Shown here in pieces: positions 4,684-61,021 of a stretch of DNA of 64,000 nt (position 1 is its first letter; each line of letters starts with the position of its first letter). The stretch spans positions 62,001-126,000 of the forward strand of contig JAFZFZ010000020.1 in assembly GCA_017557005.1 (NCBI GenBank), in the 5' to 3' direction. This stretch comes from Bacteroidaceae bacterium. Its GTDB lineage: Bacteria; Bacteroidota; Bacteroidia; Bacteroidales; Bacteroidaceae. Position numbers and translations under genes: made by a program. The notes beneath the pieces were generated by a model. It saw nothing but the letters and a program-made list of their open reading frames with translations. It was not told where the DNA came from and searched no databases.

Positions 4684-4770
4684 TATGGTTAAAGAAGCTT
4701 AGCTTCGGTTAAAGTCACAGCGTGACGATTAATGGTTAAGGGTTAACGGTTAAGGGATAATGGACATTAT
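4684..4770. repeat. Short hairpin-linker repeat block
   Basis: Between the flippase and the second acyltransferase. Two hairpins (GAAGCTTAGCTTC and GTCACAGCGTGAC) with GGTTAAA linkers are followed by a run of GGTTAA/GGGTTAA words. Same family as the array at 24341-24810. Confidence 0.8.
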
Positions 4771-5849: not shown

Positions 5850-6020
5850 GCAGCGGAGCTGCGGGGAAAGCAACCAATGGTTGCGGTGAAAGTTGCTTTG
5901 CAACGGTGAAAGCCACGGAGTGGCGGTGAAAGTCACTGCGTGACGGTTAAAGCACCTTTGGTGCGGTTAATCGCAATCGTAGATTGCTGGTTAAAGGTTA
6001 ACGTAGAACGGACAACGGGG
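5850..6020. repeat. Hairpin-linker array (about 7 units)
   Basis: Successive perfect hairpins GCAGCGGAGCTGC, GCAACCAATGGTTGC, GTTGCTTTGCAAC, GCCACGGAGTGGC, GTCACTGCGTGAC, GCACCTTTGGTGC and GCAATCGTAGATTGC are joined by GGTGAAA, GGTTAAA or GGTTAAT linkers, then by GGTTAACG words. It sits directly upstream of the acyltransferase start. The rest of the gap to 6075 shows nothing recognisable. Confidence 0.85.
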
Positions 6021-9967: not shown

Positions 9968-10376
9968 AAGAGTATGATAATATTCTGTTAACGATTAAGT
10001 GGTTTAAAAGTGTGAGTTGCCTCCGAACTCTAAGTCCTAAACAATGAACGATATAGATAACAGAAGGCTGTTCCTGTTTAGTGTTTAGAGAAACAACGAA
10101 GTTGTGGTTAATTGCGACGGAGTCGCTTGTTAATATGCCTTCGGCAAGGTTAATCGCGGCAAGGCCGCTGGTTAGGGGTTTTGGGTTAAGGGTTAAAGCA
10201 CCTTTGGTGCGGTGAAAGTTGCTGCGCAACGGGGAAAGCAACCAATGGTTGCGGTTAAAGAAGCTGCGCTTCGGTTAGAGGTTAAAGGTTAACGTAGAAC
10301 GAAAACGTTGACGTTGACGAAAAAACAGCTGCGCTGTAACGATAACGATAACGATGACGAAAACGATAACGCTTGA
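9968..10376. repeat. Intergenic repeat mosaic with hairpin-linker array
   Basis: Gene-free. About eight hairpins lie between 10092 and 10280: ACAACGAAGTTGT, GCGACGGAGTCGC, TGCCTTCGGCA, GCGGCAAGGCCGC, GCACCTTTGGTGC, GTTGCTGCGCAAC, GCAACCAATGGTTGC and GAAGCTGCGCTTC. They are followed by GGTTAAAGG words and an AACGATAACG-type run (10285-10370). An open frame of 93 codons here is a translation of the repeats and is not a gene. Confidence 0.82.
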
Positions 10377-14276: not shown

Positions 14277-14740
14277 ACGTAGAAGGTTAGAAAAGTCTTG
14301 GTTATCGTTTTCGTATTCGTTATGCTTTCGCAAGAAAGCATACTCTTGGGGCTTTGGATTACATATAAAAACAAGGAATCCAATTAGTTAGCGCAGAGAT
14401 TATCTGCAAAAACAACATAAACCTTAACATCTATTAAACGAAATTTGTTTAACGGTTAATGGTTAGCGTACTGCTTAATCGTACAAAAATACACGTTTTT
14501 AATTGGATATTCAAATTTTATAGCAACAAAGTTGCGGTTAAAGGTTAAAGGTTAGAGGTTAAGGGGGAAAGCAACCGGAGGTTGCGGTGAAAGAAGCTGC
14601 GCTTCGGTTAAAGTCACTGCGTGACGGTTAAAGCGCTAAAGCGCGGTTAAGGGTTAAAGGTTAAGGGGGAAAAGTCGCGGAGCGTATCAATTGAGAATTG
14701 AGAATTGAAAATTAGCCTGCCGGAGGAGATTGTCCCCTTA
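14277..14740. repeat. Intergenic mosaic with hairpin-linker units
   Basis: No gene. From 14450 there are GGTTAA words, hairpins GCAACAAAGTTGC, GCAACCGGAGGTTGC, GAAGCTGCGCTTC, GTCACTGCGTGAC and GCGCTAAAGCGC, tandem GGTTAAAGGTTA words, then a GAATTGAGAATTGAAAATT run near 14692. Confidence 0.78.
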
Positions 14741-14830: not shown

Positions 14831-15130
14831 ACTAAACTCTACACTATCAACAATAAACCGTCATCCATCAACCTTTAATTATCTTGTCAACGCGATCTAA
14901 CTCGAACTTAAACACGAAGTCGCTTGTTGCACTCGCGATGGTACTGCGCAAAGATTACTTAAACATAAATGGCCATAAATTACCCACAAATTGTCGTGAA
15001 TGCTTTTTATGGTATCCGTTAAACGTTAAACAGGCACCATAGGTGCTTTAACCAGGCGAATCCGATTAACCGCAGTTTCCGACTGCTTTCACCGCGCCGA
15101 AGGAACTATATTTTTGACAAGGTGTCGGTA
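14831..15130. repeat. Intergenic repeat mosaic upstream of the VapE module
   Basis: Holds the caacgcgatctaactcg module (14884-14945), hairpins GGCACCATAGGTGCT and GCAGTTTCCGACTGC with CTTTAACC/CTTTCACC linkers (15035-15100), and GGTGTCGG at 15121, the outermost copy of the palindrome that brackets the VapE-HU module. Confidence 0.7.
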
Positions 15131-17789: not shown

Positions 17790-17974
17790 GATACTGTTTC
17801 AAAAAGTGTGTCTGAGTTAAGTAGTAAAAAAGGACCGGCCAAGTTTGACCAGTCCCGACAAGTTTGTAATTTTGGGTGTGCAAATCAAAAAATTACAACT
17901 TATGTTGCTTACTGAGGAAGAGATGTATAAATGATAATAATGCGTGAGTTACTATAGATTCAACGTTAATCGTT
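17790..17974 (+). repeat. 182-bp direct repeat, left copy (IS- or MITE-like remnant)
   Basis: From atactgtttcaaaaagtgtg to caacgttaatcgtt, repeated with few differences at 22891-23072. It contains an imperfect hairpin (ggaccggcc ... gaccagtcc) and a 10-codon plus-strand start MLLTEEEMYK-stop, which looks like the truncated 5-prime end of a transposase. The two copies enclose the cassette 18.0-22.8 kb. A minus-strand frame across the repeat is not a gene. Confidence 0.8.
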
Positions 17975-22859: not shown

Positions 22860-22890
22860 ATATCAACATGCTAAAGCATAAAAAAGTTGG

Positions 22891-23072
22891 ATACTGTTTC
22901 AAAAAGTGTGTCTCGATTAAGTAGTAAAAAAGGACCAGCCATGTTTGGCCAGTCCTGACAAGTTTGTAATTTTGGGTGTCCAAATCAAAAATTACAACTT
23001 ATGTTGCTTACTGAGGAAGAAATGTATAAATGATAATAATGCCGAGTTTCTATAGATTCAACGTTAAACGTT
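22891..23072 (+). repeat. 182-bp direct repeat, right copy
   Basis: Same orientation and nearly the same sequence as 17790-17974, from atactgtttcaaaaagtgtg to caacgttaaacgtt. It has the better-preserved hairpin ggaccagcc ... ggccagtcc and the same MLLTEEEMYK start. It marks the right edge of the 5-kb cassette and lies just downstream of the oxidoreductase end. Confidence 0.8.

Positions 23073-23099: not shown

Positions 23100-23125
<26 letters not shown>
23073..23125. repeat. Hairpin units at the 3-prime end of the oxidoreductase gene
   Basis: GCAACCTCTGGTTGC then CTACAGCTTTGCTGTAG with CTTTAACC between. The second hairpin encodes the last codons and stop of the minus-strand gene ending at 23100. 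Confidence 0.75.
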
Positions 23126-24326
<1,201 letters not shown>

Positions 24327-24340
24327 TTTTTTTGAAGGTT

Positions 24341-24810
24341 AATCGCCGCAAAGCGGCTGGTTAAAGCAGTCAGAGACTGCGGTGAAAGTTGCTGCGCAAC
24401 GGTGAAAGCAGCGGAGCTGCGGTGAAAGCCACAGAGTGGCGGTTAATCGTGGCAGAGCCACTGGTTAAAGATGAAAGGTTAGAGGGCAGCGGAGCTGCGG
24501 GGAAAGTCGCAGAGCGACGGGGAAAGCAGTCGAAGACTGCGGTTAAAGTGCCTTTGGCACGGGGAAAGTTGCTGCGCAACGGTGAAAGCAGCGGAGCTGC
24601 GGTTAAAGTGCCTTTGGCACGGGGAAAGCACGCGAGGCGTGCGGTTAATCGTGGCAGAGCCACTGGTTAAGGGTTAAAGGTTAGAGGGCAGCGAAGCTGC
24701 GGGGAAAGCACGCGGGGCGTGCGGTGAAAGTGCCTACGGCACGGTGAAAGCGCTAAAGCGCGGTTAAAGTCGCGAGGCGACGGTGAAAGTGCCTTTGGCA
24801 CGGTTAAAGG
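24341..24810. repeat. Largest hairpin-linker array (about 22 units)
   Basis: By eye 22 hairpins, all with matching arms, including GCCGCAAAGCGGC, GCAGTCAGAGACTGC, GTTGCTGCGCAAC, GCAGCGGAGCTGC, GCCACAGAGTGGC, GTGGCAGAGCCAC, GTCGCAGAGCGAC, GTGCCTTTGGCAC, GCACGCGAGGCGTGC and GCGCTAAAGCGC. Linkers are GGTTAAA, GGTGAAA, GGGGAAA or GGTTAAT. The period is 20-23 bp, close to two helical turns. The arms differ between units but remain complementary, so structure rather than sequence is kept. Frames across it are not genes. Confidence 0.9.
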
Positions 24811-24961
24811 ACAGCCATTGGCTGTTTTGTTTAGTGTGTAGAGTTTAGTGAGCCCTCCGGATGGAATAGCCAACAACCAATGGTTAAAGGTTAAGGGTTA
24901 ATGGTTAATGTTGAATGAGCTAAAAGCCAACAACTAATAGCTAACCGCCAACAGCTAACCG
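24811..24961. repeat. Non-hairpin repeat words after the large array
   Basis: tttagtgtgtagagtttagtg, the CCCTCCGGATGG junction (24853-24864), a ggttaaaggttaagggttaatgg run and a gccaacaactaatagctaacc run, ending exactly at the stop codon of the next gene. Confidence 0.8.
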
Positions 24962-26761
24962 CTAACGGCTCTTAAAATATAGTTCTTTATTCCAGCTTGC
25001 GGCTTTGAGGAAGGGTTCGGGGAGTACCCCACTCCATGGCTTGCCACATGGTGCGGCGGGAAGTACATATTGATTGATGGCTTCCAGCTTACGTCGATGC
25101 ATGGCATGCGACATACGGAGGATGTATGCATTCTTATAACCGAGTCTCCACACATTGTAGTACCACATCCAGACGCAGTATTCATAGATGGTGGGCTGCT
25201 TATCTGCCAGCAGTGACTTGACGATAGCCGCGGCTTGCACATGGTCGTTCCAGCCCTCTCCCCAATGGGGAACAAAGAGGGCGTCGGGTGACAGTTGATT
25301 GAGAAGAGCACGTAGCTGCTCCGTCGCTGAATGTTCGAAAGATATAGCTTCATCTGGATACCTCAGCGTATGAATATGCGACTCGGGTAAGCCCAACGTA
25401 GCAGCAGCCTCCAAGGTCAGCTTATGACGCATCTCGATAAGTGTTTCTTCTGGAATATCGCAGCATCCACGATGCGACCCTTCACCACCGGAAAGAATTA
25501 TTACATGGGGAGGTGTGCCACGCTCTACCAAGGCCTGTATAAGCCCTGCGCAACCAATCACCTCGTCGTCGGGATGCGGAGCGATGATAACAGTGTTATC
25601 AGACAGAGGAAGGTTGGGTCTGTTCCGATAAAGCAAATGTAGTATAATGAGGCGGATGTGGCGAAGTGTTTTCTTTATTCCTTCAACCCCTAATAAGGAC
25701 TCTTTATTAGAACAAGATTGTTTAACACGAGTGTGTTTTGTATCATTTCCGCTCGCCACGGCGAAACTGCTACAACCGCGTAACTTAAAGAGATTGATAT
25801 TAAAGAGTCGCCAAATAAGTACATAAGGTACCCCTTTATTGGTAATCTTTGCTGCCTCCCAATACAAATCCGAAGAGGTATCTTTTATATACTTATTGTA
25901 ATCGGCCAACATCTCTTCACTCTCAGCCATTCCACCACAATACTCCTTTGACATCAATAGCTTATAGGCAAAGGCCATTGGCACTCCTATATTCTCCTTG
26001 ATGATTTTCCTCTTTATGGGAGAGAACTGACTATTGGCATAAAAAGCAATGATTGTCTTTACTACCGACAAGTAGTTCCTGCAATTGCGTTTATAGCTCT
26101 CGATACTCGTACTCTGCCCCTCCACATCCTTACGGTACTGATATAGATTGATATTGGTAATATACACCGTTTCAGCACAGGCGATAGCATACAGATAGTA
26201 ACAGATATCACCATAGTAGCGCGGAGGTAGTTGTATGTGGTTATCTGTAAGTATCTGCTTACGGATGGTGATATTGGTCATAGGAAGATACAAACTACCC
26301 TTGGTATGGGAAGCATATTCCCCAATGGTCAGTATTTGCCCGCATAGGCTTTCAGCATATTGCTTACCTTTTTGCTTACTTTCCCCATTTATAGCCGTAT
26401 AATTGCTTGCAAAGATATCGGCCTCACATATTTTCAGCGCAGCCATAAACTCGGCGAAGGCAGCCTTGTCGAACCAGTCATCGGAGTCGAGGATCTTGAA
26501 GTAGCGACCTCGGGCCTCAGCTATGGCGAGATTGATGACGGTGCCCCACCCTCCGTTGGGTTTATCGATGACACGAAGAATCTCGGGGAATCGTGCCTCG
26601 TACTCGCGAGCAAGGGCAAGAGTGCCATCCTTGCTGCCATCGTTGATGGCAAGGACTTCCAACACATCGTTGTACTCGAGCGCGAGGATGCTATCCAGGC
26701 ACTCGGCCAGATATTGCTCTACGTTGTAGCAGGGGATAACTATGGTTAGGAGTTTATTCAT
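24962..26761 (-). CDS. GT2 glycosyltransferase fused to PIG-L/LmbE deacetylase
   Basis: About 599 residues. The N-terminal GT-A domain begins LTIVIPCYNVEQYLAECLDS, with INDGSKDGT and the metal-binding ILDSDDWF. The C-terminal domain (from about 395) is PIG-L-like: VIIAPHPDDEVIGCAGL, SGGEGSHRG and HWGEGWNDHVQAA, the zinc-dependent N-deacetylase pattern. A single protein may transfer an N-acetyl sugar and deacetylate it, giving a free amino group in the polysaccharide; the coupling is inferred. I chose the ATG at 26761 (MNKLLTIV); 26782 is possible. Confidence 0.85.
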   Translation of the reverse strand: MNKLLTIVIPCYNVEQYLAECLDSILALEYNDVLEVLAINDGSKDGTLALAREYEARFPEILRVIDKPNGGWGTVINLAIAEARGRYFKILDSDDWFDKAAFAEFMAALKICEADIFASNYTAINGESKQKGKQYAESLCGQILTIGEYASHTKGSLYLPMTNITIRKQILTDNHIQLPPRYYGDICYYLYAIACAETVYITNINLYQYRKDVEGQSTSIESYKRNCRNYLSVVKTIIAFYANSQFSPIKRKIIKENIGVPMAFAYKLLMSKEYCGGMAESEEMLADYNKYIKDTSSDLYWEAAKITNKGVPYVLIWRLFNINLFKLRGCSSFAVASGNDTKHTRVKQSCSNKESLLGVEGIKKTLRHIRLIILHLLYRNRPNLPLSDNTVIIAPHPDDEVIGCAGLIQALVERGTPPHVIILSGGEGSHRGCCDIPEETLIEMRHKLTLEAAATLGLPESHIHTLRYPDEAISFEHSATEQLRALLNQLSPDALFVPHWGEGWNDHVQAAAIVKSLLADKQPTIYEYCVWMWYYNVWRLGYKNAYILRMSHAMHRRKLEAINQYVLPAAPCGKPWSGVLPEPFLKAASWNKELYFKSR

Positions 26762-26781
26762 TTCAATTTTTCTTATTTTCA

Positions 26782-26941
26782 TCAACAGAATTTAGACACG
26801 AACTTAAACACGTTTACGCACACGCAGGCTTGTGCTGGCCTCCGGGGTGTTATCTATAATCTCACGCAGACGCCGCAGAAGACGCAGAACTTAGTTTCTC
26901 CACATGGTGAACATGATGATTTAAATTCGCAGAAGCACGCG
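26782..26941. repeat. Dispersed repeat module
   Basis: Contains a copy of the tcaacagaatttagacacg ... cgcaggcttgtgctggcctccgg module (26784-26847), then tctcacgcagacgccgcag words. No gene. Confidence 0.75.
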
Positions 26942-27910: not shown

Positions 27911-28209
27911 TTGCGGTTTTACCGCTGGTTAAAGCCACTGTGTGGCGGTTAAAGTGCCATAGGCACGGTGAAAGCTGCAGGGCAGCGGTTAAAGCAACTG
28001 GAGGTTGCGGTTAAAGTCGCGAGGCGACGATTAAAGGACACGCGGAGCGTGTACGATGACGTTAACGAAAACGAAAACAATCAGAAATCAACTGTATTAT
28101 CTTTTTATCAACGCGGATTTAACTCGAACTTAAACACGTTTTTTGCACGTCGCTCGCTCGTGCCGCCTCCAAGATGAGGACACGTAGAGTGTGTATAATA
28201 ACGAAGCAG
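27911..28209. repeat. Hairpin-linker array plus mosaic modules
   Basis: Hairpins GCCACTGTGTGGC, GTGCCATAGGCAC, GCTGCAGGGCAGC, GCAACTGGAGGTTGC, GTCGCGAGGCGAC and ACACGCGGAGCGTGT (27930-28052), then an AACGAAAACG run and a copy of the caacgcggatttaactcg module (28105-28175). No gene. Confidence 0.82.
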
Positions 28210-31221: not shown

Positions 31222-31731
31222 TTGCTAGTTTAGAGTGTATAAATGTTTCACATTTAAGACCACTTGCTTGCTCGGCATAGTTCAAATAAATTAGACTCTG
31301 CTCTCGCTATGCTGCGTGGTTAGTGTGTAGTGTTTAGAGTAGGCACCTGTGGTGCGAGAAACGTGGAACGAGGAACGGTGAAAAGCAGTCGGGGGACTGC
31401 GGTTAAAGCGTTTTCAGCGCGGTGAAAGCAACTGATGGTTGCGGTGAAAGAAGCGAAGCTTCGGTTAAAGTCGCGAGGCGACGGTGAAAGGACACGCGAA
31501 GCGTGTACGATAACGTTCTCGGACTAGCCGAGGGCTGCGCTATTGACGAAGACTAAAACCTTCGTTGAATTAGAAATTAATAGTTAAAAATTAAAACGGT
31601 TTAATCGTATGGCAACGGGGTGATTTTATTTGTCAACTTTCTAACGCTCGACCTACTGCTTAGAAGGCAGTTGCTCTATGAAGCCTAACAATGATTCTTA
31701 GTAAAAAACTAAAAACAATTACTATCGTAAA
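31222..31731. repeat. Intergenic mosaic with hairpin-linker units
   Basis: No gene. A tttagtgtttagagt run, then hairpins GCACCTGTGGTGC, GCAGTCGGGGGACTGC, GCAACTGATGGTTGC, GAAGCGAAGCTTC, GTCGCGAGGCGAC and ACACGCGAAGCGTGT (31340-31510), AACG words, and the gacctactgcttag sequence at 31650-31671 shared with 10375. Confidence 0.8.
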
Positions 31732-37292: not shown

Positions 37293-37474
37293 TTTATAGC
37301 ACCTTCGGTGCGGTTAAAGCGTCTTTGACGCGGTGAAAGGTTAAAGGTTAAAGGTTAAAGGTTAGAGGTGAGGGGGTGAGAGGTGAGAGGGTTAGGGAGG
37401 CTTTGTTTAGTGTGTAGTGTTTAGTGTGCCATCCGGACGGCCCTATAACCCATAACCTTTAACCCTTATAGAGG
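37293..37474. repeat. Hairpins and tandem GGTTAAAGG words
   Basis: GCACCTTCGGTGC and GCGTCTTTGACGC, four tandem GGTTAAA words, GGTGAGAGG words, a tttagtgtgtagtgtttag run, CCATCCGGACGG (37429-37440) and ccataacctttaaccc. They directly follow the four-helix-bundle gene. Confidence 0.8.
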
Positions 37475-37947: not shown

Positions 37948-39288
37948 TTATTCCCTTCTAATATGAAGTTCAAATGCCTCTGAATGTTGCTCTACAAACT
38001 GCTTGGCATCGTTGACGACGAGGGCGAGGTAGCCACCACCGCCTGCACCGGGCATCTTCCAAGCAAGGACATCGTCCATAGCGCTGTAGTGAGATATGGC
38101 TTCGGCGATGTAGCTATTAGCTGTTTCGATATTACAGTCTACGGTCAACGGTCTACGGTCAACAGTCAGGCCATCCGGATGGAGGTTTTCGTTTTCGTTA
38201 GCGTTAGCGTCAACGTTAGCGTTATCGTTATCGTTTATATGATAGGTCGGGGTAATCATGCCGGGGAACATGGCGACCTGGGCATCAAAAGAGGCTTTGT
38301 AGGCGGATGCAAAGGCGGCAAGGTCTTTCTTCATGATGGCTTCCCAGCAGGCATCGGCGGCATCGACAAGAGCCTGCACCTTGGTGGGGGTGATATCCTT
38401 GTTTTCAACGACTGAGCAGCCGGGCTTGCGGGGCTCCATGGGTACCATCACGAGGTGCTCCTCAAGGAAACGGAGGGTCATCTCATCAACGGTGTTCTCA
38501 ATCTTCTTGGGCCAGAAATTATTGTCGTAGTAGTGACGGCAGAGGCCGGGGAAGCAGATGCCGATGGAGTCCTGAGCACCGGAGATATGGCCCTCCTGAC
38601 GCTCGGGGTTGTTCTCGAAGCAGAAGACGAGGCGAGCGAGCATCTCGGGATCCATCTTGGGGAGCTTCATGGGCCAGATCTTCTGTATCATATTGCGGGT
38701 GCTGGTGCTGAGACCGCAGCGGTCGCGCACATCGAAGGTAGGCTCCAACGAGATGGTGATGGCCCAGCCGGGACGATGCATGCTGACATAGGGCTGGTCG
38801 ATCCAGGTGCCGGCGAGGTCGAGGCGGGTGGGGATACCCACATTGGCTGTTGGCTGTTGGCTATTGGCTTCTTGGGTGCTGAGGGATGCCTTGAGGGAGC
38901 TGGAGCTGCGGGCCTCTAACCCTGCGTGGGGGGTGCGCTGCAACTCGATATACTGGATGCCGCGCTCCTCGCAGAGCTGACGCTTGGTGTCGCTGCCGCC
39001 ATCGGCATTGACAACGAAGATGTCGGGCTTAACGAGGTCGAGGGTGGGCAGGAAGTCGATGACGCCGCTGCCCTCGTTGATGTAGGCTTCCTTGACGGCC
39101 TTGATATTGCGTACCATAAACAGGCGTTCCTCCTGAGGGAACATGGGCTTACGGTGCTTGTACTCGAGGTAGGTGGCATCGGAGCCGATGCCGACATAGA
39201 GTTCGCCAAACTGGGATGCCTGCTGGAAGAACTCTACATGGCCGCTATGGAGTAGGTCATAACAACCTGATACAAAAACTTTTTTCAT
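37948..39288 (-). CDS. Cytidylyltransferase-GHMP sugar kinase fusion carrying in-frame repeat insertions
   Basis: 446 residues. The N-terminal nucleotidyltransferase has GCYDLLHSGHVEFF (HxGH) and GSDATYLEYKH. The C-terminal GHMP kinase has PTRLDLAGTWID, SGAQDSIG and a terminal GAGGGGYLALV. It likely makes an activated sugar (heptose or fucose-like) for the polysaccharide. Two stretches are repeat-derived: residues about 134-148 (EANSQQPTAN) and 350-387 (NDNDNANVDANANENEN, then HPDGLTVDRRPLTVD). The second reproduces the intergenic composite at 47477-47545. Whether the enzyme still works is unknown; the frame is intact. Confidence 0.82.
   Translation of the reverse strand: MKKVFVSGCYDLLHSGHVEFFQQASQFGELYVGIGSDATYLEYKHRKPMFPQEERLFMVRNIKAVKEAYINEGSGVIDFLPTLDLVKPDIFVVNADGGSDTKRQLCEERGIQYIELQRTPHAGLEARSSSSLKASLSTQEANSQQPTANVGIPTRLDLAGTWIDQPYVSMHRPGWAITISLEPTFDVRDRCGLSTSTRNMIQKIWPMKLPKMDPEMLARLVFCFENNPERQEGHISGAQDSIGICFPGLCRHYYDNNFWPKKIENTVDEMTLRFLEEHLVMVPMEPRKPGCSVVENKDITPTKVQALVDAADACWEAIMKKDLAAFASAYKASFDAQVAMFPGMITPTYHINDNDNANVDANANENENLHPDGLTVDRRPLTVDCNIETANSYIAEAISHYSAMDDVLAWKMPGAGGGGYLALVVNDAKQFVEQHSEAFELHIRRE
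38140..38240. repeat. Repeat insertion inside the GHMP kinase gene
   Basis: Read on the minus strand: AACGATAACG-type words, aacgaaaacgaaaacc, CCATCCGGATGG (38171-38182) and gttgaccgtagaccg words, in the same order as the intergenic stretch at 47477-47545 upstream of sprA. No stop codon in the coding frame. Confidence 0.85.
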
Positions 39289-43239: not shown

Positions 43240-43511
43240 TTTTGGTTCTGCTTTCACCGAAGCAAAGCTTCTTTAACCGTCGCTCTGCGACTTTAACCGC
43301 GTCAAAGACGCTTTCACCATGCCGAAGGCATTTTCACCGTTGCGGAGCAACTTTAACCGAAGCGAAGCTTCTTTAACCGCAACCCTCGGTTGCTTTCACC
43401 GTGCCGAAGGCACTTTCACCGAAGCGAAGCTTCTTTCACCGTTGCGAAGCAACTTTAACCGCGCTTTAGCGCTTTCACCGCGTCAGCGCTTTCACCAACA
43501 ACCCAAGGCTG
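43240..43511. repeat. Hairpin-linker array in inverse orientation (about 12 units)
   Basis: With CTTTAACC/CTTTCACC linkers on the plus strand: GAAGCAAAGCTTC, GTCGCTCTGCGAC, GCGTCAAAGACGC, ATGCCGAAGGCAT, GTTGCGGAGCAAC, GAAGCGAAGCTTC, GCAACCCTCGGTTGC, GTGCCGAAGGCAC, GTTGCGAAGCAAC, GCGCTTTAGCGC; the last units (GCGTCAGCGC and ACAACCCAAGGCTGT) are imperfect. It ends at the stop of the transferase gene. Confidence 0.88.
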
Positions 43512-44696
43512 TCACTCCTGCAGCGGAGGATTTTTTCCATCCATCAGGCGTTGGAGCCAGAGGAAGATGCCTTTGCGCTCGACATGGGAGATCTTACCGA
43601 GGGTGCACATGATATCCCAAAGGGCGTAGCGGCGTCTCTGGCACAGGCGCATGAGGCCGTAGAAACCGAAGGTGACGAGGAGCGACATGGCGACGCAGAC
43701 GTAGAACTGCACGTTGATGGTGCAGCCTGCCTTGTAGACGCCATACCATGAGAAGAACACCAGGAGGTTGAGCAGGAGGATGCTGACCGTGGTGCCTATA
43801 TGGGAGAAGCCCATCGAGATGAACAGATGGTGCAAATGGGTCTTGTCGGGATGGAAGGGGGAGGTACCACGCAGGATGCGCATGCTCATGACACGGATGG
43901 TGTCGAACACGGGGATGGACATGACGGACAGGGTGAAGGGTACCAAGCCGAGGCCCCACGAGTCGTAGTAGACGCAGTAGGTCTCGCTCTTGAGGATGTT
44001 GAGCACGAAGATGCTCATGACAATGCCGATGACGAGGGTGCCGCCATCGCCGATGAACATCTTACTGGTGCGACCAAAGACATTGTGGAAGAAGAAGGGC
44101 AGCAACGAGGCCACACATACGGAGGCGAGCATGACCATGTTGACATCGCCAGCCAAGTAGAAGAAGAAACCGAAGATGCTGCAGGCCATGATACTATAAC
44201 CACTGCTATAGCCGTCGACACCGTCGATGAGGTTGATGGCATTGATGATGCCAACCACGGAGAGGACGGTGAGGGGTATGCTGAGGCAGGCGGGCAGGTT
44301 GTTGATGCCCCACAGGCCATGGAAGTCATTGATGCTATAGCCACAGGTGGAGATGAGCATGAGCACCAGGAGGATCTCGATAAGGAAACGAGAGCCGGCG
44401 GAGAGCTCGATGACATCATCGATGGTGCCCACATACAGCATCACCAGCATGGCGAGCATAATGGTGAACAGTCCGCTGCAGTCGTAAAACATGCGGCAAA
44501 CGCTCAGGGATACCAGGATGCCAAACATGACTGCGACACCGCCCAATACAGGGACGGGAATGCGCTGCAGCTTGCGGGCATTGGGATTGTCAACTATGTC
44601 TTTCAACAGGGCTATGCGCAGCACCTTGGGGTAGATCCAAATGGCGGCAAGCAACGATACCACAAAGGGTATGAGGATGTGAAGAATAATGGACAT
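43512..44696 (-). CDS. WecA/MraY-type undecaprenyl-phosphate sugar-1-phosphate transferase
   Basis: 394 residues, 10-11 membrane helices. GTIDDVIEL, NLIDGVDGYSSG, MFIGDGGTLVIG and HPDKTHLHHLF are the cytoplasmic loops of the polyprenyl-phosphate HexNAc-1-P transferase family. It transfers a sugar phosphate, probably GlcNAc-1-P, to undecaprenyl phosphate and so starts each repeat unit. It is the first gene of the minus-strand polysaccharide operon, reached from a promoter at about 45003-45033 through a 300-nt leader. Confidence 0.9.
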   Translation of the reverse strand: MSIILHILIPFVVSLLAAIWIYPKVLRIALLKDIVDNPNARKLQRIPVPVLGGVAVMFGILVSLSVCRMFYDCSGLFTIMLAMLVMLYVGTIDDVIELSAGSRFLIEILLVLMLISTCGYSINDFHGLWGINNLPACLSIPLTVLSVVGIINAINLIDGVDGYSSGYSIMACSIFGFFFYLAGDVNMVMLASVCVASLLPFFFHNVFGRTSKMFIGDGGTLVIGIVMSIFVLNILKSETYCVYYDSWGLGLVPFTLSVMSIPVFDTIRVMSMRILRGTSPFHPDKTHLHHLFISMGFSHIGTTVSILLLNLLVFFSWYGVYKAGCTINVQFYVCVAMSLLVTFGFYGLMRLCQRRRYALWDIMCTLGKISHVERKGIFLWLQRLMDGKNPPLQE

Positions 44697-44870
44697 ATTT
44701 TATTGATGGTTAAAGTCGCGGAGCGACGGTTAAAGCAGCGGAGCTGCGGTTAAAGCTACTTCGTAGCGGTTAAAATGCCTGCGGCATGGTTAAAGCTGCC
44801 AAAGGCAGCGGGGAAAGCAACCAATAGGTTGCGGGGAAAGTGGCGGAGCTGCGGGGTAGCAGCATTGTAG
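44697..44870. repeat. Hairpin-linker array in the leader of the polysaccharide operon
   Basis: GTCGCGGAGCGAC, GCAGCGGAGCTGC, GCTACTTCGTAGC, ATGCCTGCGGCAT, GCTGCCAAAGGCAGC and GCAACCAATAGGTTGC with GGTTAAA or GGGGAAA linkers. It lies between the putative promoter and the ATG at 44696, so it would be in the 5-prime leader of the operon mRNA. Confidence 0.85.
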
Positions 44871-47168: not shown

Positions 47169-47680
47169 TGTGTGAACTACCTAAATAACCGTGTTTTCGT
47201 GTGGAATCGGGTTGATAGTTAAATTCGTGAGATTCGTGAGATTCGTGGTCAAACAGAAACAGCTGTTAGTTATTATGACTAAACAAAATTACTAAGTTTT
47301 TTAACTTACCTACACAATAATCTATTTTATCCCGCGTTTATGAATAACGTATGCGCGTGGATAGCCGCTGGCGGTGAAAGCACGCGGGGCGTGCGGTGAA
47401 AGCCACGGAGTGGCGGTTAAAGTGCCTTTGGCACGGTTAAGGGTTAAGGGTTAGAGACCGTAGACCGTTGACGATAACGTTGACGATAACGAAAACGAAA
47501 ACCTCCATCCGGATGGCCTGACCGTTGACCGTAGACTGTTGACGATAACGATGACGAAGACGAAGAAAAATACCACCTCCCCCTTACAGGGTACTCCTCC
47601 TAATTTAGGAGGAGAAATTAACCTGCTGGATGGAGACCGTTGACCGTAGACCGTTGACCATTGACAGTTGACAAAATGAA
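47169..47680. repeat. Intergenic mosaic upstream of sprA
   Basis: The remainder of the target module, attcgtgagattcgtg (47222-47255), hairpins GCACGCGGGGCGTGC, GCCACGGAGTGGC and GTGCCTTTGGCAC (47372-47436), an aacgataacgttgacg run, CCATCCGGATGG (47502-47513) with gttgaccgtagac words, and a ccacctcccccttacagg ... taggaggag module (47570-47619). No gene; the start of sprA follows. Confidence 0.82.
47570..47619 (+). repeat. CTCCTCC palindrome module, left copy
   Basis: ataccacctcccccttacag through a perfect CTCCTCCTAATTTAGGAGGAG palindrome with one asymmetry. An inverted copy is at 63438-63484, so the pair brackets the sprA-clpB block. Confidence 0.75.
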
Positions 47681-50600
47681 ATGGAAGAAAGAGTGAGACA
47701 CAAGATATTGACAATACTGCTAACGATGATGGCTTTTGCGATGAACGCAAAGGCTCAAGGTGTTGTGCAGTTTGCCGACTCACTCAACAAGGAGACGCGC
47801 TATGAAGTGGCGAAGACCGCACCCGACAACGAGAAGGACCTGGAGCGCAAGGCGGTGGACCTGCGCAACCCGGAGAACCTGACGACGGAGACGACCTACG
47901 ACGAGAAGACACATACGTACATCGTGGGTAACAAGATAGGCGACTCGTACCTGTCGGTGCCCCTACTGATGACTCCCGAGGAGTATGCAGCATGGAGCAT
48001 GAAGCGCTCGCTGGACGCTTACTTCCGCAACAAGAACCAGGAGGAGTTTGAGAAGGAGGGCAAGAAGGAGAAGTTTGACTTCACAGATATGAAGTTTGAC
48101 CTGGGCCCCGCGGAGAAGATCTTCGGCCCTGGTGGCGTACAGATCAAGACGCAGGGATCGGCCGAACTGAAGTTTGGCTTCAACCAGAAGAGCATCGACA
48201 ACCCCTCGCTGCCGACACGTAGCCGCAACACCTTCGGGTTTGACTTCGACGAGAAGATCAACCTGAGCATCAATGGTAAGGTGGGCGACAAGGTGAACCT
48301 CAACATGAACTACAACACGGAGGCGACCTTCGACATAGACTCGAAGAAGATGAAGCTCAAGTACGACGGCAAGGAGGATGAGATCATCAAACTGCTTGAA
48401 GCGGGTAACGTGAGCTTCCCCACCAACTCGTCACTCATATCGGGTGCCACCTCGCTCTTCGGTATACGTGCCGACCTGCAGTTTGGCAAGCTGTCGCTAC
48501 AGACAGTGGTGTCGCAGAAGACCTCGGAGAGCAGTTCGGTAAGCTCAAAGGGCGGCAGCCAGCTGACGGAGTTTGAAATCGATGTGGCGGACTACGACGA
48601 GAACCGACACTTCTTCCTGGCACACTACTTCCGCGAGACCTATGACCGCAACATGGCGCAGCTGCCTACCATCCTGTCGGGGGTAGTGATCACGCGCATC
48701 GAGCTGTGGGTGACCAACAAGACAAGCAACTACGACAACCCGCGCAACGTGATTGCCTTCACCGACCTGGGTGAACCATCGCGCATCAGCAACCCGCAGT
48801 GGACAGCCACGGGCGAGCGCATGCCTAACAACACGGCCAACAGCCTCTACTACCAGATGGCAAACAACTACAGTGCCATCCGCGACATCGACCAGGTGGG
48901 GGCGGTGCTGGGCGACATGCTCTCGGGTAGCACCGACTATGAGAAGGTGGCCAACGCCCGCCTGCTGAGCCAGAGCGAATACACACTGAACAAGTCGTTG
49001 GGTTATGTGTCGATGAAGTCGACGCTGAAGTCGGACGAGGTACTGGCGGTAGCCTTCGAGTATACCTATGCGGGCAAGACCTACCAAGTGGGTGAGTTCT
49101 CGACCGACAAGAAGGAGCGAAGCGACGCCTTGTATGTGAAGTTACTGAAGTCGAACAGTTCATCGCCCGCCAATGCGACCTGGGACCTGATGATGAAGAA
49201 CATCTACTACCTGGGGGCAAACAGCATCACCTCGAAGGATTTCCGACTCGACATCGAATATGAGAGCGATAGCACGGGTACTAACCTACCCTACCTGCCC
49301 GAGGGCAACCTGAAGAGCAAGACGCTGCTGCAGCTGATGAACCTGGACCGCCTGGATGCGAAGCAGAATGCCAACCCGAACGGATTCTACGATTATGTGG
49401 AGGGATACACGGTGCAGTCATCAACGGGACGCATCATCTTCCCCGTGATCGAGCCTTTCGGTGCTCACCTGCGCAAGGTGATTGGCAACGATGCGGTGGC
49501 GGACAAGTATGTGTTCGAGGAGCTGTACGACTCGACCAAGACCACGGCCAAGCAGATTGCCGAGAAGAATAAGTTTATCCTCACGGGTGAATATGCGGGA
49601 TCGGGAGGCAACGTGATACAGCTGGGTGCCTACAACATTCCGCGCGGATCGGTGAAGGTGACGGCAGGTGGCGTGACGCTGACCGAGAACAGCGACTATA
49701 CGGTGGACTACACCATGGGTACGGTGACCATCATCAACCAGAGCATCCTGGATGCGGGCACACCGGTGAACGTATCGATGGAGAGCAACACGGTGTTTAA
49801 CATGCAGCGCAAGACGATGCTGGGCATGAACTGGGCATACGACTTCAACAAGGACTTCAAGCTGGGTGGTACGCTGATGTACCTGAACGAGAAGCCGCTC
49901 ACAAGTAAGGTGAGCATGGGCGACGAACCGCTGAAGAACACGCTGTGGGGCCTCAACATGGCATGGAAGCATGAGAGCCAGCTGCTCACCAACATGCTGG
50001 ACCTGCTGCCGGGACTGCACGTGACACAGCCCTCGCGCATCAACTTCACCGCGGAGTTTGCGCAACTCGTGGCGGGGGTGTCGAACCAGGTACAGGGTAG
50101 CGCCTCGTATATCGACGACTTTGAGAGCAGCGAGAGTGGCATCGACATCAAGTCGCCCAGCGCATGGATGCTATCGGGCATACCGGCATCGCAACCCTAC
50201 GCGAACCTTGTAGATGACACGCGCACGGGCATGAACCGCGCACTGATCAACTGGTTTACCATAGACCCGCTCTTCACACGACGCAACTCATCGCTGACAC
50301 CGGCACATATCAAGAGTGACCTGGAGCAGCTGTCGAACCACTACGTGCGCGAGGTGTACGAGCGCGAGCTATATCCTAATAAGGAGAGCACCTACGGCGA
50401 GTCGTCGACACTATCGGTGCTGAACCTGGCCTACTACCCCGACGAGCGTGGTCCCTACAACCTGGATACGAACCTGACACCCGAGGGTAAGCTCCTCAAC
50501 CCGGAACAACGCTGGGGCGGTATCATGCGACAGCTGACGACGACCGACTTTGAGAGCTCGAACATCGAGTACATCGAGTTCTGGATGCTGGATCCCTTCA

Positions 50601-53600
50601 TCTATAACCCCGAGGCACGGGGTGGTGACTTCTACATCAACCTGGGTGAGGTGTCGGAGGATGTGCTGAAGGATGGTAAGAAATTCTACGAGAATGGTAT
50701 GCCCGTGACGGAGGCTGCCGGCTCCTATACCGAGACGCAGTGGGGACGTGTGCCCACGGCGGCAAGCCTGGTGTATGCCTTCGACAATACAAGTGCCAAC
50801 CGTCCGAAGCAGGATGTGGGCCTCAACGGACTGAGCAGCGAGGAGGAGCGACTCTTCCCCACCTACATGAACTACCTGGCCGACGTGCGCGGCAAGGTGA
50901 GCGAGGAGGTGTATCGCCAGCTGGAGGATGACCCTGCAGGTGACACGTATCACTTCTACCGTGGCGACGACTACGACGAGCAGCAGCTCTCGATACTGGA
51001 GCGTTACAAGCGATTCAACAACACGGAGGGTAACTCGCCCTCATCGGAGGGTAGCACACGCTACGACAAGAGTGCGAAGACGACTCCCGACGTGGAGGAT
51101 ATCAACCAGGACTACACGCTGGATGAGTATGAGAAGTACTTTGAGTATCGTATATCATTGCGTCCGCAGGACATGGCCGTGGGACGCAACCACATCACGG
51201 ACATGCGTACCTACCGCACGAAGCTGCGCAATGGCAATACGGAGGCGGTAAACTGGTATAAGTTCCGCGTGCCCATCGATGGCTACGAGAAGGTGGTGGG
51301 AAGCATACGCGACTTTACCTCACTGCGCTTCATGCGTATCTACATGACGGGATTCAGCGAACCGGTGATCGTGCGTCTGGCTACGATGGAGCTCATCCGC
51401 GGCACATGGCGCAGCTACGACCAGCCCATCTACTCGGCTACCAACAAGGCGCCCAAGGTGAGCGGTAGCATGGTGGTGGCATCGGTCAACATCGAGGAGA
51501 ACGGCGACCGCATGCCGGTGAACTACACCATGCCGCCGGGCATCTCACGTGTGCTCGACCCCTCGCAGCCTCAGCTACGACAGGACAATGAGCAGGCGAT
51601 GAGTCTGCAGATCACGGGACTGGAGCCGAACGAGGCACGTGCCGTATACAACAAGACGAACCTCGACCTGCGCAGGTATGAGCATGTGCAGATGTATGTG
51701 CATGCCGAAAACCTCGTGGATATGGCCAACGAGGTGAAGGATGGGGAGATGACCGTATTCGTGCGACTGGGATCGGACTACAAGAGCAACTACTATGAGT
51801 ATGAGATTCCGCTCACCATCACACCCGAGGGTTACTATGATGGTAACACGACGAACGGATGCAAGGCGGTGTGGCCCGAAGAGAACATGCTGGACATCGA
51901 CTTCACCAAGCTGACGGAGCTGAAGCGCCGACGCAACCTGGCAGCCAACAGCAACCCGGAGGTGACGAAGACGAAGATATACTCGGAGTTTGACGAGGAC
52001 AACCCCAAGAACCGCATCAGCGTGGTGGGTAACCCGACCATCGGAAAGGTGAAGACGGTGATGGTGGGCGTGCGCAACAACTCGCGCTCGACCAAAGCCA
52101 TCGAGGTATGGGTCAACGAGCTGCGCCTCACGGGATTCAACAACCAGGGTGGCTGGGCGGCACAGAGCGCACTGAACGTGCAGCTGTCGGATGCGGGTAG
52201 CGTGAACATGAGCGGACGTGCCGAGACGGCTGGCTTCGGCGGATTGGAGCAGGGGGTGAGCCAGCGACGCATCGACGACTACTACCAGTATGCCGTGACC
52301 ACGAGCTTTGACCTGGGACGCTTCTTCCCCGAGAAGATGAAGCTGAACCTGCCGCTCTACTACTCGTACCAGCAGGAGAAGACATCACCACTGTATAGTC
52401 CGTTCGACACGGACCTCTACCTGGATGATATGCTGGAGACATTGCCCACGATGGAGCGCGACTCGCTGGCATCGATTGCCAACCTGGTGACGACATCGAA
52501 GAACCTGAGCTTGAGCAACGTGAAGATAAACATCGCAAGCAAGAAGCCGATGCCTTATGACCCGGCCAACTTCAACTTCGGTTTCTCGCACAGCGTAAAG
52601 GACAACTCGGGCAACACGACACAGTATCAGCACCAGCTCACCTGGCGTGCCGTGGCGGGCTATACCTATGCGCCGGCCATGAAGCCGTGGCAGCCCTTCA
52701 ACAGCATCAAGGCGAAGTCAAAGTGGCTGGATATGTTCAAGGAGGTGGGCATCAGTCCGCTCCCGCAGAGCTTTGCCTTCAACACGGAGATGAACCGTAC
52801 CTATTTCGAGCTGCAGACACGTGACCTGCAGAGCTCGTTCGGTGGCATGGGCATACCGGTGACCTTCTCACAGGAGTTTATGTGGAACCGCAACATGGAT
52901 ATACGCTGGGATCTGCTGAAGGCGCTCAAGATGAACCTCAACACGCGCACGAATGCCGAGATCGAGGAGCCCTATGTACCGGTAAACAAGGCGCTATACC
53001 CGGATGAGTATGCCTTCTGGAAGGATTCTATACAGCATAGCCTCGCCCGCATGGGACGTCCGCTCGACTATCAGCAGTCGTTCAGCGCATCGTACCAGCT
53101 GCCGCTGAGCAAGTTGCCGATACTGGACTGGACATCGATGGATGCCAACTTCTCGTCATCGTATAGCTGGGACCGCGGTGCTACACTGGCGGGAGGCACG
53201 ACCTATGGTAACACGGTGGCCAACCAGCGCTCGCTCACCGTGAACGGTAAGCTGAACCTGGAGAACCTATATAATAAGGTGGACTTCCTGAAGGAGACGA
53301 ACAAGAAGTTTGCCTCTACGAAGGGACGCACCACAACAAAGAAGACAACTACGACGAAGAAGCCGAAGAAGTTTACGCAGGAACTGAAGATATTGCCCGA
53401 CAGCACCTATACCATCAAGCATGGACAGAAGAGCAAGCGTCCGGAGGTGGCCTCGCGCACCAAGGAGGGACGACCCTACAAGGTGAAGTACAAGGTGATA
53501 GATGAGAACACCATCGCACTGACGGGCCCTGACACGGCCAACGTGAAGCTGACCATCGGACCGGGACCGGACATCTCGGAACTGCCGTGGTACAAGGCGG

Positions 53601-55021
53601 CACAGTATACGGCACGCGGACTGATGCTGGTGCGCAACGTGTCGGCCACCTACAAGAACGTGAACTCGATGGCTCTGCCGGGATTCATGCCTCAGGCTGG
53701 CGGCTTGCTCGGACAGAGCAATGCGGGCGGACTCTATGCGCCGGGATGGGACTTTGCCTTCGGACTCACGGGTGACGACTACCTGCAGCGTGCCTTCGAC
53801 AATGGCTGGCTGCTCGACAATGATAGCATCGCCTATGCGTCGACCTCGAACGCTACCGAGGATCTGCAGATAAAGGCTACCCTGGAGCCGGCACGCGACT
53901 TCAAGATCGACCTCAACGCGTCGTGGGTGAAGAGCAACGCACGTAACGTACAGTTTATGTATGCAGGTATGCCCGAGACACGTACGGGTACGTTCAACAT
54001 GACAACCATCACCATCGGATCGGCCTTCGAACGCCGCATGGCAAGCAATGGCTATCACTCGGAACGCTTCAGCGACTTCGTGCAGAGCCTGGAGACGGTG
54101 CAGCGACGTGTGCAGGGCCAATATGCAGGAGCTACCTATCCTGAGGGTACGGCACTGGCCGGCATGCCCTTCAATGCGGCTAATGGCGGCGTGGGCAAGT
54201 ACTCACCCGACGTGATGATACCGGCCTTCCTGGCTACCTATGCTGGGGGCGACGCCACCTCGTCGAGCCTGAGCCTGTTCCCCTCGATGCTGTCGATGCT
54301 CCCCAACTGGCGACTCACCTACAGCGGACTGGGCAAACTGCCGATGTTTAAGAAGCACTTCAAGAGCGTGAACATCAACCACTCGTATAAGAGTGTGTAC
54401 TCGGTGGGATCGTTCAACACGTACAGCACCTATCAGGAGTATATGAACGGACTGGGATTCATACAGGATGTGACCACGGGAAGTCCTGTGCCCTCGTCGA
54501 TGTTTGACATCTCGGCCGTGAGCATCAACGAACAGTTCTCACCGCTCATCGGTGTGGATGTGACACTGCTCAACAACATGACTGCGAAACTGGAATATAA
54601 GAAGAGCCGCGTGATGAACCTGAGCATGTCGGCCGTGCAGCTGGTAGAGACCAACTCGGACGATATCGTGCTGGGCGTGGGCTATAAGATGACGAACGTG
54701 AAACTGTTTGGTGTGGGCAAGCGACCCACCAACACGGGAGGCGGACGCGGACGCGTGAACAACGACCTGAACCTACGTGCGGACTTCTCTTGGCGCGACC
54801 AGAGTGCGCTGTGCCGCAACATACAGGATATCACCACGCAGGCGACCAGTGGCAACAAGGCGCTGAAGATGTCGCTCTCGGCGGACTATACCTTCTCGCG
54901 CATGCTGACGCTGAATGCTTACTTTGACCATCAGACCAATATCCCCGTGGTATCGGCCAATGCCTACCCCACCTCAACGAACGACTTCGGCATATCTATG
55001 AAGTTTGCGTTGACGAGGTAA
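47681..55021 (+). CDS. sprA: SprA, T9SS outer-membrane translocon
   Basis: 2446 residues, the usual giant size of SprA. A signal sequence (KILTILLTMMAFAMNAKA, then Q) is followed by a periplasmic/N-terminal part and a long barrel region of repeated aromatic-ended strands; the C-terminus ends in a strand FGISMKFALTR. SprA is the outer-membrane pore of the type IX secretion system, exporting proteins with C-terminal sorting domains. GC-rich and highly expressed-like in codon use. No repeat insertion seen inside. The stop is followed at once by repeat words. Confidence 0.93.
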   Translation: MEERVRHKILTILLTMMAFAMNAKAQGVVQFADSLNKETRYEVAKTAPDNEKDLERKAVDLRNPENLTTETTYDEKTHTYIVGNKIGDSYLSVPLLMTPEEYAAWSMKRSLDAYFRNKNQEEFEKEGKKEKFDFTDMKFDLGPAEKIFGPGGVQIKTQGSAELKFGFNQKSIDNPSLPTRSRNTFGFDFDEKINLSINGKVGDKVNLNMNYNTEATFDIDSKKMKLKYDGKEDEIIKLLEAGNVSFPTNSSLISGATSLFGIRADLQFGKLSLQTVVSQKTSESSSVSSKGGSQLTEFEIDVADYDENRHFFLAHYFRETYDRNMAQLPTILSGVVITRIELWVTNKTSNYDNPRNVIAFTDLGEPSRISNPQWTATGERMPNNTANSLYYQMANNYSAIRDIDQVGAVLGDMLSGSTDYEKVANARLLSQSEYTLNKSLGYVSMKSTLKSDEVLAVAFEYTYAGKTYQVGEFSTDKKERSDALYVKLLKSNSSSPANATWDLMMKNIYYLGANSITSKDFRLDIEYESDSTGTNLPYLPEGNLKSKTLLQLMNLDRLDAKQNANPNGFYDYVEGYTVQSSTGRIIFPVIEPFGAHLRKVIGNDAVADKYVFEELYDSTKTTAKQIAEKNKFILTGEYAGSGGNVIQLGAYNIPRGSVKVTAGGVTLTENSDYTVDYTMGTVTIINQSILDAGTPVNVSMESNTVFNMQRKTMLGMNWAYDFNKDFKLGGTLMYLNEKPLTSKVSMGDEPLKNTLWGLNMAWKHESQLLTNMLDLLPGLHVTQPSRINFTAEFAQLVAGVSNQVQGSASYIDDFESSESGIDIKSPSAWMLSGIPASQPYANLVDDTRTGMNRALINWFTIDPLFTRRNSSLTPAHIKSDLEQLSNHYVREVYERELYPNKESTYGESSTLSVLNLAYYPDERGPYNLDTNLTPEGKLLNPEQRWGGIMRQLTTTDFESSNIEYIEFWMLDPFIYNPEARGGDFYINLGEVSEDVLKDGKKFYENGMPVTEAAGSYTETQWGRVPTAASLVYAFDNTSANRPKQDVGLNGLSSEEERLFPTYMNYLADVRGKVSEEVYRQLEDDPAGDTYHFYRGDDYDEQQLSILERYKRFNNTEGNSPSSEGSTRYDKSAKTTPDVEDINQDYTLDEYEKYFEYRISLRPQDMAVGRNHITDMRTYRTKLRNGNTEAVNWYKFRVPIDGYEKVVGSIRDFTSLRFMRIYMTGFSEPVIVRLATMELIRGTWRSYDQPIYSATNKAPKVSGSMVVASVNIEENGDRMPVNYTMPPGISRVLDPSQPQLRQDNEQAMSLQITGLEPNEARAVYNKTNLDLRRYEHVQMYVHAENLVDMANEVKDGEMTVFVRLGSDYKSNYYEYEIPLTITPEGYYDGNTTNGCKAVWPEENMLDIDFTKLTELKRRRNLAANSNPEVTKTKIYSEFDEDNPKNRISVVGNPTIGKVKTVMVGVRNNSRSTKAIEVWVNELRLTGFNNQGGWAAQSALNVQLSDAGSVNMSGRAETAGFGGLEQGVSQRRIDDYYQYAVTTSFDLGRFFPEKMKLNLPLYYSYQQEKTSPLYSPFDTDLYLDDMLETLPTMERDSLASIANLVTTSKNLSLSNVKINIASKKPMPYDPANFNFGFSHSVKDNSGNTTQYQHQLTWRAVAGYTYAPAMKPWQPFNSIKAKSKWLDMFKEVGISPLPQSFAFNTEMNRTYFELQTRDLQSSFGGMGIPVTFSQEFMWNRNMDIRWDLLKALKMNLNTRTNAEIEEPYVPVNKALYPDEYAFWKDSIQHSLARMGRPLDYQQSFSASYQLPLSKLPILDWTSMDANFSSSYSWDRGATLAGGTTYGNTVANQRSLTVNGKLNLENLYNKVDFLKETNKKFASTKGRTTTKKTTTTKKPKKFTQELKILPDSTYTIKHGQKSKRPEVASRTKEGRPYKVKYKVIDENTIALTGPDTANVKLTIGPGPDISELPWYKAAQYTARGLMLVRNVSATYKNVNSMALPGFMPQAGGLLGQSNAGGLYAPGWDFAFGLTGDDYLQRAFDNGWLLDNDSIAYASTSNATEDLQIKATLEPARDFKIDLNASWVKSNARNVQFMYAGMPETRTGTFNMTTITIGSAFERRMASNGYHSERFSDFVQSLETVQRRVQGQYAGATYPEGTALAGMPFNAANGGVGKYSPDVMIPAFLATYAGGDATSSSLSLFPSMLSMLPNWRLTYSGLGKLPMFKKHFKSVNINHSYKSVYSVGSFNTYSTYQEYMNGLGFIQDVTTGSPVPSSMFDISAVSINEQFSPLIGVDVTLLNNMTAKLEYKKSRVMNLSMSAVQLVETNSDDIVLGVGYKMTNVKLFGVGKRPTNTGGGRGRVNNDLNLRADFSWRDQSALCRNIQDITTQATSGNKALKMSLSADYTFSRMLTLNAYFDHQTNIPVVSANAYPTSTNDFGISMKFALTR

Positions 55022-60804: not shown

Positions 60805-61021
60805 AACGGTTAAAGCCAGCAACCTAAAGGTTAGTGGTGGTTAAAAACAGCCTTGGCTGTCGGTTAAAGAAGCTACGCTTCGGTTAAAGTTGCTTCGCAA
60901 CGGTAACGAAAGCATAAACTCGAGGCCAATTTTCATTTTTTCAAGGTTCGTGCCAGCGAGCGAAATGCAAGTTTACTTGTGATTTCTCTGCGAGCACAGC
61001 CGAAGCTCAACAACGCAGTTG
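60805..61021. repeat. Hairpin-linker units between the EF-hand gene and clpB
   Basis: ACAGCCTTGGCTGT, GAAGCTACGCTTC and GTTGCTTCGCAAC with GGTTAAA linkers (60845-60902), then spacer without clear features. Confidence 0.75.

Follow-up and report, generated by a model that had tools for sequence, protein, structure and literature searches.

Inspection of the window, the whole 64-kb stretch of DNA analysed here, which comes from a draft genome of an uncultured Bacteroidaceae bacterium (G000; 2.58 Mb in 106 contigs, about 83% complete), showed the intergenic gap between the start of an ORF at 23100–24326 (minus strand) and the end of an ORF at 24962–26785 (minus strand) to contain an array of very short hairpins. 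Its parts, read directly from the letters, and the satellite that lies beyond it are the following:

24337–24826, plus strand: main array, 22 perfect mini-hairpins on GG[TG][TG]AA[AT] linkers
24337–24469, plus strand: sub-array 1, six hairpins, the last unit being AATC-GTGGC-AGA-GCCAC-T plus linker
24463–24487, plus strand: linker-only heptamer stretch GGTTAAAGATGAAAGGTTAGAGG, separating sub-arrays 1 and 2
24487–24664, plus strand: sub-array 2, nine hairpins, the first GCAGC-GGA-GCTGC and the last AATC-GTGGC-AGA-GCCAC-T
24664–24687, plus strand: linker-only heptamer stretch GGTTAAGGGTTAAAGGTTAGAGG, separating sub-arrays 2 and 3
24688–24826, plus strand: sub-array 3, six hairpins and the terminal hairpin
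24880–24912, plus strand: linker-only GGTTAAN heptamer satellite without hairpins (24880–24908 closely matched in array-free genomes of the genus)

The 21 linker-separated hairpins (24345 to 24801) and the terminal hairpin, ACAGCC-ATT-GGCTGT (24811–24825), add up to the 22 announced by the original prediction; they are not strictly consecutive, as it had supposed, since the two linker-only stretches divide them into three sub-arrays. The linker was 7 nt long, mostly GGTTAAA, GGTGAAA or GGGGAAA. The spacing, earlier put at 20–23 bp, was measured as 18, 20 or 22 bp, unit length changing in steps of two because both arms (4, 5 or 6 bp) lengthen or shorten together. A GCAGC hairpin opens blocks 2 and 3, and AATC-GTGGC-AGA-GCCAC-T closes blocks 1 and 2; these shared starts and ends indicate that the main array has an internal order.

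Further arrays were found on both strands of the window, in both orientations as anticipated, and they fall between predicted genes:

4687–4732, plus strand: two hairpins
5850–5988, plus strand: seven hairpins, including a head hairpin GCAGC-GGA-GCTGC
10093–10276, plus strand: about eight hairpins, with heptamers inside
14523–14648, plus strand: head hairpin, then linker-only heptamers, then four hairpins
15036–15113, minus strand: about four hairpins
27914–28056, plus strand: six hairpins and a terminal module GGACACGC-GGA-GCGTGTACGA
31377–31510, plus strand: five hairpins and a terminal module GGACACGC-GAA-GCGTGTACGA
37299–37360, plus strand: two hairpins, then linker-only heptamers
43270–43505, minus strand: 12 hairpins
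44708–44850, plus strand: six to seven hairpins
47373–47445, plus strand: three hairpins, upstream of an sprA-like gene (47681–55021)
60839–60905, plus strand: three hairpins

Strict criteria give about 13 clusters in the window, fewer than the 17 or so first estimated. Linker-plus-hairpin units numbered 75 on both strands, against 0–4 per single-strand Markov shuffle; the earlier figure of 90–100 hairpins becomes plausible once those at the start and end of arrays, which have a linker on one side only, are counted in.

Other repeats were noticed in and around the window. A 185-bp direct repeat (17790–17974 and 22890–23072, 92% identical) is related to 134-bp copies located at contig ends (C77, C72 and C48) and in the related genomes G014 and G001; it may be the end of a mobile element. 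The palindrome CCATCCGGATGG, with five intergenic copies, forms another dispersed family (window positions 38171, 41986, 45584, 47505 and 63422). A further intergenic hairpin, recognized by eye, combines covarying arms with a conserved loop (CCGACGC-RGTATGAAA-GCGTCGG, CCGATGC-GGTATGAAA-GCATCGG, then TTGCGACG); it was seen at loci L069 and L078 and on the 3′ side of the array at 14564 in the window.

The unit of the arrays consists of a perfect mini-hairpin (outer G-C pair, closing C-G pair, arms of 4–6 bp and usually a 3-nt loop) and the 7-nt GGTKAAA, about 20 nt in all. Among 217 perfect hairpins from the window and the other fetched loci, the first arm base was G in 205, the closing pair was C-G in 208 and the loop was 3 nt long in 198, several such counts having been taken on loci picked because arrays were present. 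The stem foot was GGTKAAA or AATC in nearly all units, and the GTAG/GTGG tetranucleotide foot was absent. When the 3′ halves of window inserts of equal length were exchanged in 2000 permutations, a mean of 13.1 and a maximum of 21 of the 74 linker-flanked inserts formed perfect hairpins, compared with 66 in the real sequence; for unique units only, 45 of 53 were perfect, compared with a permuted mean of 8.6. The perfectly complementary arms and the fixed linker were thus both confirmed, the complementarity lying far above that of shuffled sequence. Neighbouring units stand head-to-tail, and inverted neighbours are rare. In 35 of 61 arrays the first linker was immediately preceded by a hairpin, which begins with GCA in 20 cases, compared with roughly a fifth of all units; the arrays are likely to have a polarity and a preferred head hairpin, with the count inflated by copied arrays.

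The 133 perfect hairpins counted in the host genome use 24 arm words, 15 of which were found again in other species. The arms thus belong to a shared, genus-wide stock of about 24 words and do not drift freely, and the recurrence of 15 words in other species indicates that what looks like covariation comes mostly from existing hairpins being shuffled and copied. The original prediction, that the arms remain complementary while their sequence drifts, is therefore right in that complementarity is kept while the letters vary, but free drift does not take place. Chimeric hairpins, in which the left and right halves come from different words (e.g. GCTGC-TGC-GCAAC), show recombination inside units. 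Same-word neighbours occurred in 2 of 110 cases in the host genome, against 6.9 expected (p 0.027, optimistic like the other p-values given here, since many units are related by copying), and neither pair was identical; at lags 2 to 4 there was no same-word excess, the values lying at expectation. No identical adjacent perfect hairpins were found in any genome examined, so that neighbours are not fresh tandem duplicates. A recurrent imperfect hairpin occurs in a shorter form, GCTCC-TTT-GTCGC, and a longer one, ACTCCC-TTC-GGTCGT, with an identical TC/TC double mismatch in both (L096, L088–L098); this is the only hairpin type seen in identical adjacent copies, in genomes other than the host.

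These features bear on an explanation that calls for no dedicated enzyme and no function, the hairpins arising as by-products of replication. Template switching by the polymerase at imperfect palindromes (quasipalindrome correction) would perfect the arms, slippage would add or remove units, and ectopic recombination via the heptamers would copy blocks. In E. coli, template switching is an established route to perfected inverted repeats (PMC7202029), the chimeric hairpins would be products of recombination, and single units could be lost by slippage between flanking TGGTTAATC repeats. Slippage, however, predicts identical neighbours, which are under-represented, and the limited word list is left unexplained.

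Single mismatches in the arms amounted to about five G-T and eight A-C in 252 units, counted after removal of three innermost T-G in 5-nt loops, with no excess of G-T over A-C. Two loop classes were over-represented among the 198 triloops: TNC (83, against 15.2 expected from loop composition) and GNA (20, against 6.4). GNA loops on G-C pairs give extraordinarily stable DNA mini-hairpins (PMC4686876); as TNC is the complement of GNA, the majority of the stable loops are on the strand reading CTTTAACC. RNA and DNA nearest-neighbour energies gave no ranking of the triloops, which the parameter sets hardly tell apart. This loop preference and the fixed outer G...C boundaries are not accounted for by template switching and slippage. 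The mismatches also weaken a second explanation, according to which the hairpins are selected RNA or regulatory elements, located in 3′ or 5′ UTRs, that stabilize or regulate transcripts. The strong conservation of complementarity would agree with such a role, but G-T pairs (A-C on the other strand) are nearly absent, and drift through G-U pairs does not fit. Nor did the Rfam search give a match at gathering thresholds; a tRNA search found nothing.

The position of the arrays relative to genes showed no orientation bias: 24, 6 and 8 of 38 arrays lay in tandem, convergent and divergent gaps, respectively, the background gaps numbering 112, 26 and 45, and the proportions were those of other intergenic gaps. 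There was likewise no strand bias relative to GC skew (28 versus 24). Read in their own orientation, arrays usually lie closer to the 5′ gene than to the 3′ gene; on the 3′ side they often run on as heptamers or other repeats. Several window arrays start within 25 bp of a start codon, as might be expected of regulatory RNA elements; their gene context, however, is that of the intergenic background, and they occur in both orientations relative to genes. A chromosome-architecture or protein-binding role has been proposed for the BIMEs of E. coli, and by analogy the arrays might be kept as sites for a nucleoid or topoisomerase protein. Their intergenic, clustered and orientation-independent placement would suit that role, and a protein could recognize a linker that is fixed while the stems vary.

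Comparison of related genomes revealed frequent changes at these sites. Between G002 and G004, where the flanks can be aligned, a single 18-bp unit and a ∼220-bp block were precisely gained or lost, being present in one genome only, and the array part of this block was also found at a second G004 locus. In a gap with flanks 97.8% identical, G012 and G013 contain different arrays, that of G013 being a 97.9% copy of another array on the same contig. Upstream of sprA, the host genome has three hairpins and the orthologous region of G012 and G001 has none; a comparison of orthologues via the gene at 43512–44696 was uninformative, synteny not being shared. Copied blocks end in heptamers or other repeats. 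Units and multi-unit blocks have thus been shown to be gained, lost and copied between intergenic regions. Such differences in array content at one site between close relatives count against regulatory RNA elements and, together with the observations above, make an RNA function unlikely; high turnover also speaks against an architectural role. For the enzyme-free explanation, the evidence is divided. The termination of array copies inside heptamers or other repeats, and the lack of bias by gene orientation or GC skew, agree with it, but one-sided arm mutations persist in near-identical copies (GAAAC/GCTTC in G012; TACAGTC/GACTGCA in G010), indicating that arm correction is not instantaneous.

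The distribution of the arrays was determined by pattern searches, on which the genome-wide counts are based, in the whole host genome and its relatives, as had been proposed. The tandem-unit pattern had 96 strict matches in the host genome and the reversed control pattern none. A single 145-kb contig, C3, which contains the window, holds 44 of the 96 matches, a very uneven density for a protein-binding or architectural element. Among 200 related genomes, real arrays, as judged by inspection of the matched letters, were confined to the host genus; the few matches outside it were isolated or did not form hairpins. Within the genus (19 genomes of uncultured ruminant-gut Bacteroidaceae), an rpoB tree placed the arrays in one subclade, the exception being a single match in G015, outside it. 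No arrays were found in G018 (sister to the host), G008 or G007, though they lie inside the array-bearing subclade; every array-bearing genome is a draft MAG, and the counts for the genus depend on completeness. That the arrays are missing from these three genomes, one of them the sister species, is a further point against an architectural role, which is improbable. A scan of 84,980 species genomes returned 12 stretches, all from Bacteroidaceae/Bacteroidales MAGs, the named sources of which were gut samples of cattle, sheep, goat, roe deer and water deer. Viral contigs, plasmids and phages were also searched, with no array match.

Several arrays lie at contig ends of draft MAGs, which could point to an assembly or sequencing artefact. 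The same design and the same words recur, however, in MAGs assembled independently by different studies from different hosts, including several ruminants, so that an artefact is hardly credible. Of the two outcomes named as refuting the original prediction (arms no more complementary than shuffled controls, clusters missing from independent assemblies), neither was observed. Array-free genomes of the genus closely match the linker-only heptamer stretch near 24880, and the heptamer satellite, judged from this comparison, appears to be older or wider than the hairpins. With the linker heptamers apparently wider, the confinement of the arrays to one subclade is not explained by enzyme-free processes.

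A gene co-occurring with the arrays, which the original prediction had proposed to look for, was found in the form of a divergent Y1 HUH protein with the motif PDHIH and the Tyr motif YIxDNP. It matched the NCBIfam model NF047646 (REP-associated tyrosine transposases, RAYT) with an E of 1.9e-10, which is under the cut-off, and the family is extended at the C-terminus by roughly 170 aa. When solved structures were searched with a profile of the RAYT alignment, all matches were weak (IS200-type transposases, TatA) and the C-terminal region had none. One clade of this family, clade A, was present in six of the eight array-bearing genomes (G000, G001, G010, G012, G013 and G014) and in none of the 11 genomes without clear arrays. 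The hypergeometric p is about 0.001 for the genus and 0.03–0.06 inside the subclade, where the association is weak, related genomes not being independent. Clade A was not found in two array-bearing genomes, G004 (74% complete) and G002 (81%), both of them incomplete MAGs, and G018, G008 and G007 have neither arrays nor clade A. The paralogous clade B showed no association with arrays (three array-bearing and three array-free genomes). The hairpin that flanks clade A, CTCNGCG-GGACAA-CGCNGAG (CTCTGCG-GGACAA-CGCAGAG), is a different one from the array hairpin, which makes the link between clade A and the arrays correlative; copies of it dispersed elsewhere were looked for and it is not dispersed, and no array lies beside the clade A gene.

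The clade A gene and its adjoining DNA are about 97–98% identical among G012, G014 and G001 (L132, L133 and L134), which rpoB puts on separate branches; the sequences suggest that the gene was recently transferred horizontally. Relatives of this RAYT in other genera have short hairpins with variable 3-nt loops in and around the gene, and one of them has three tandem hairpins with a spacer containing GGTTRA. In-frame hairpins, TATGCTGCRAC-NNN-GTYGCAGC, the arms of which vary by species, were seen in the RAYT-like coding sequences at L158 (G116), L157 (G101), L153 (G079), L151 (G097) and L160 (G099). A hairpin in G008 was considered as the scar of a lost RAYT gene and was rejected, there being no homology.

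The closest likeness is to the REP and REPIN elements with their RAYT proteins (TnpA_REP, including the GTAG families), which are short intergenic palindromes present in many copies, clustered, and accompanied by a Y1 HUH protein. The arrays are likewise a high-copy intergenic palindrome (96 strict matches in the host genome) in a genome with a divergent RAYT-like gene. Unlike REPs, they have no GTAG/GTGG stem foot, their 4–6 bp arms are drawn from many words per genome instead of one REP consensus, they are strictly head-to-tail tandem with a fixed 7-nt linker, and the hairpin flanking the co-occurring clade A gene is not that of the arrays. They are not filed as REPs because two defining features, the GTAG foot and a RAYT gene flanked by the same repeat, are missing. 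REPINs consist of two inverted REPs in one long hairpin, whereas the units here stand head-to-tail. Conserved arms, which the original prediction had given as the mark of REP/REPIN elements, are not general, as some REP sub-families have 'alternative complementary stem residues' (PMC3733652). In subclass 2.4 of TnpA_REP (RAYT group 4), from Bacteroidetes and Cyanobacteria, REPs are inserted inside the gene (PMC6006769), and the family described here also has in-frame hairpins between the HuH and Tyr motifs. That subclass, however, is described without a C-terminal core extension (PMC6006769), while the present family adds its roughly 170 aa, scores under the NCBIfam RAYT cut-off and is tied to the arrays by co-occurrence only.

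The RHE/DHE elements of sponge and fungal mitochondria are intergenic hairpins, sometimes tandem and lineage-specific, that spread within the genome and show some complementary substitutions (PMC2800124); as described there, they are like the arrays in spread and structure, but they belong to organelle genomes, their stems are mostly conserved while the loop varies, and they have no fixed heptamer linker. Heptamer satellites of the GGTTAAN type resemble the arrays in that the array linker is itself a heptamer repeat in the same genomes; ordinary ones have no hairpins between units. CRISPR arrays share the regular tandem order of fixed and variable parts, but here the palindrome varies and the short linker is fixed, the units are of ∼20 bp and the loci are many. 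No description of the mini-hairpin/heptamer-linker design was found in the open-access literature, a search with most subscription journals outside its coverage.

The arrays are probably a small parasitic or mobile DNA element that keeps its folded shape while its letters vary. We tentatively favour viewing them as lineage-specific, REP-like structured interspersed DNA that spreads via single-stranded hairpins, possibly with the involvement of the RAYT-like protein. This view is based on arms that are perfect far above permutation, the enrichment of TNC/GNA loops, the rarity of G-T and A-C pairs, the sharing of words, the chimeras, the scarcity of same-word neighbours, the turnover of units and blocks, the co-occurrence of clade A in contrast to clade B, and the hairpins in and around the genes of RAYT relatives. 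The propagating entity would be the folded single-stranded hairpin; units that fold would be copied and those that do not would be lost, which would leave the arms complementary though their letters differ. Copying might be done or helped by the divergent HUH nuclease of the array-bearing genomes, the least certain step. Its putative target would be the TTAA(A/T) with which each linker ends, and each insertion would re-create this target, so that the array could grow in tandem. The units sit within a GGTTAAN heptamer satellite, which also exists free of hairpins. Some HUH elements target the lagging strand; the absence of a GC-skew strand bias (28 versus 24) is unlike them and counts against a HUH role. 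So do the different, undispersed hairpin flanking clade A, the lack of arrays beside its gene and the failure to find it in the incomplete G004 and G002. Block copies that end in heptamers or other repeats fit homologous exchange too. The enzyme-free explanation, itself quite possible, ranks just below the RAYT-like one and is nearly as likely.

A more specific form of the enzymatic reading, which we consider doubtful, is a hairpin-cassette system. Its HUH nuclease would read shape and linker, not the stem, and would insert single 18–22-nt hairpin-plus-linker cassettes from a pool at TTAA(A/T); the site would be re-created each time, and the stems in an array would be interchangeable and unlike their neighbours.

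Sequence conservation is what usually defines REP-like repeats. What is conserved in the arrays is the shape, the loop class and a short linker, and the letters of the stem are interchangeable. If it is the folded shape that is copied, the arrays would be an example from nature of DNA elements that replicate through their structure. For the hairpin repeats of bacteria and mitochondria it has long been ambiguous whether structure is selected or palindromes are generated by mutation; if true, this reading would allow the two to be told apart directly.
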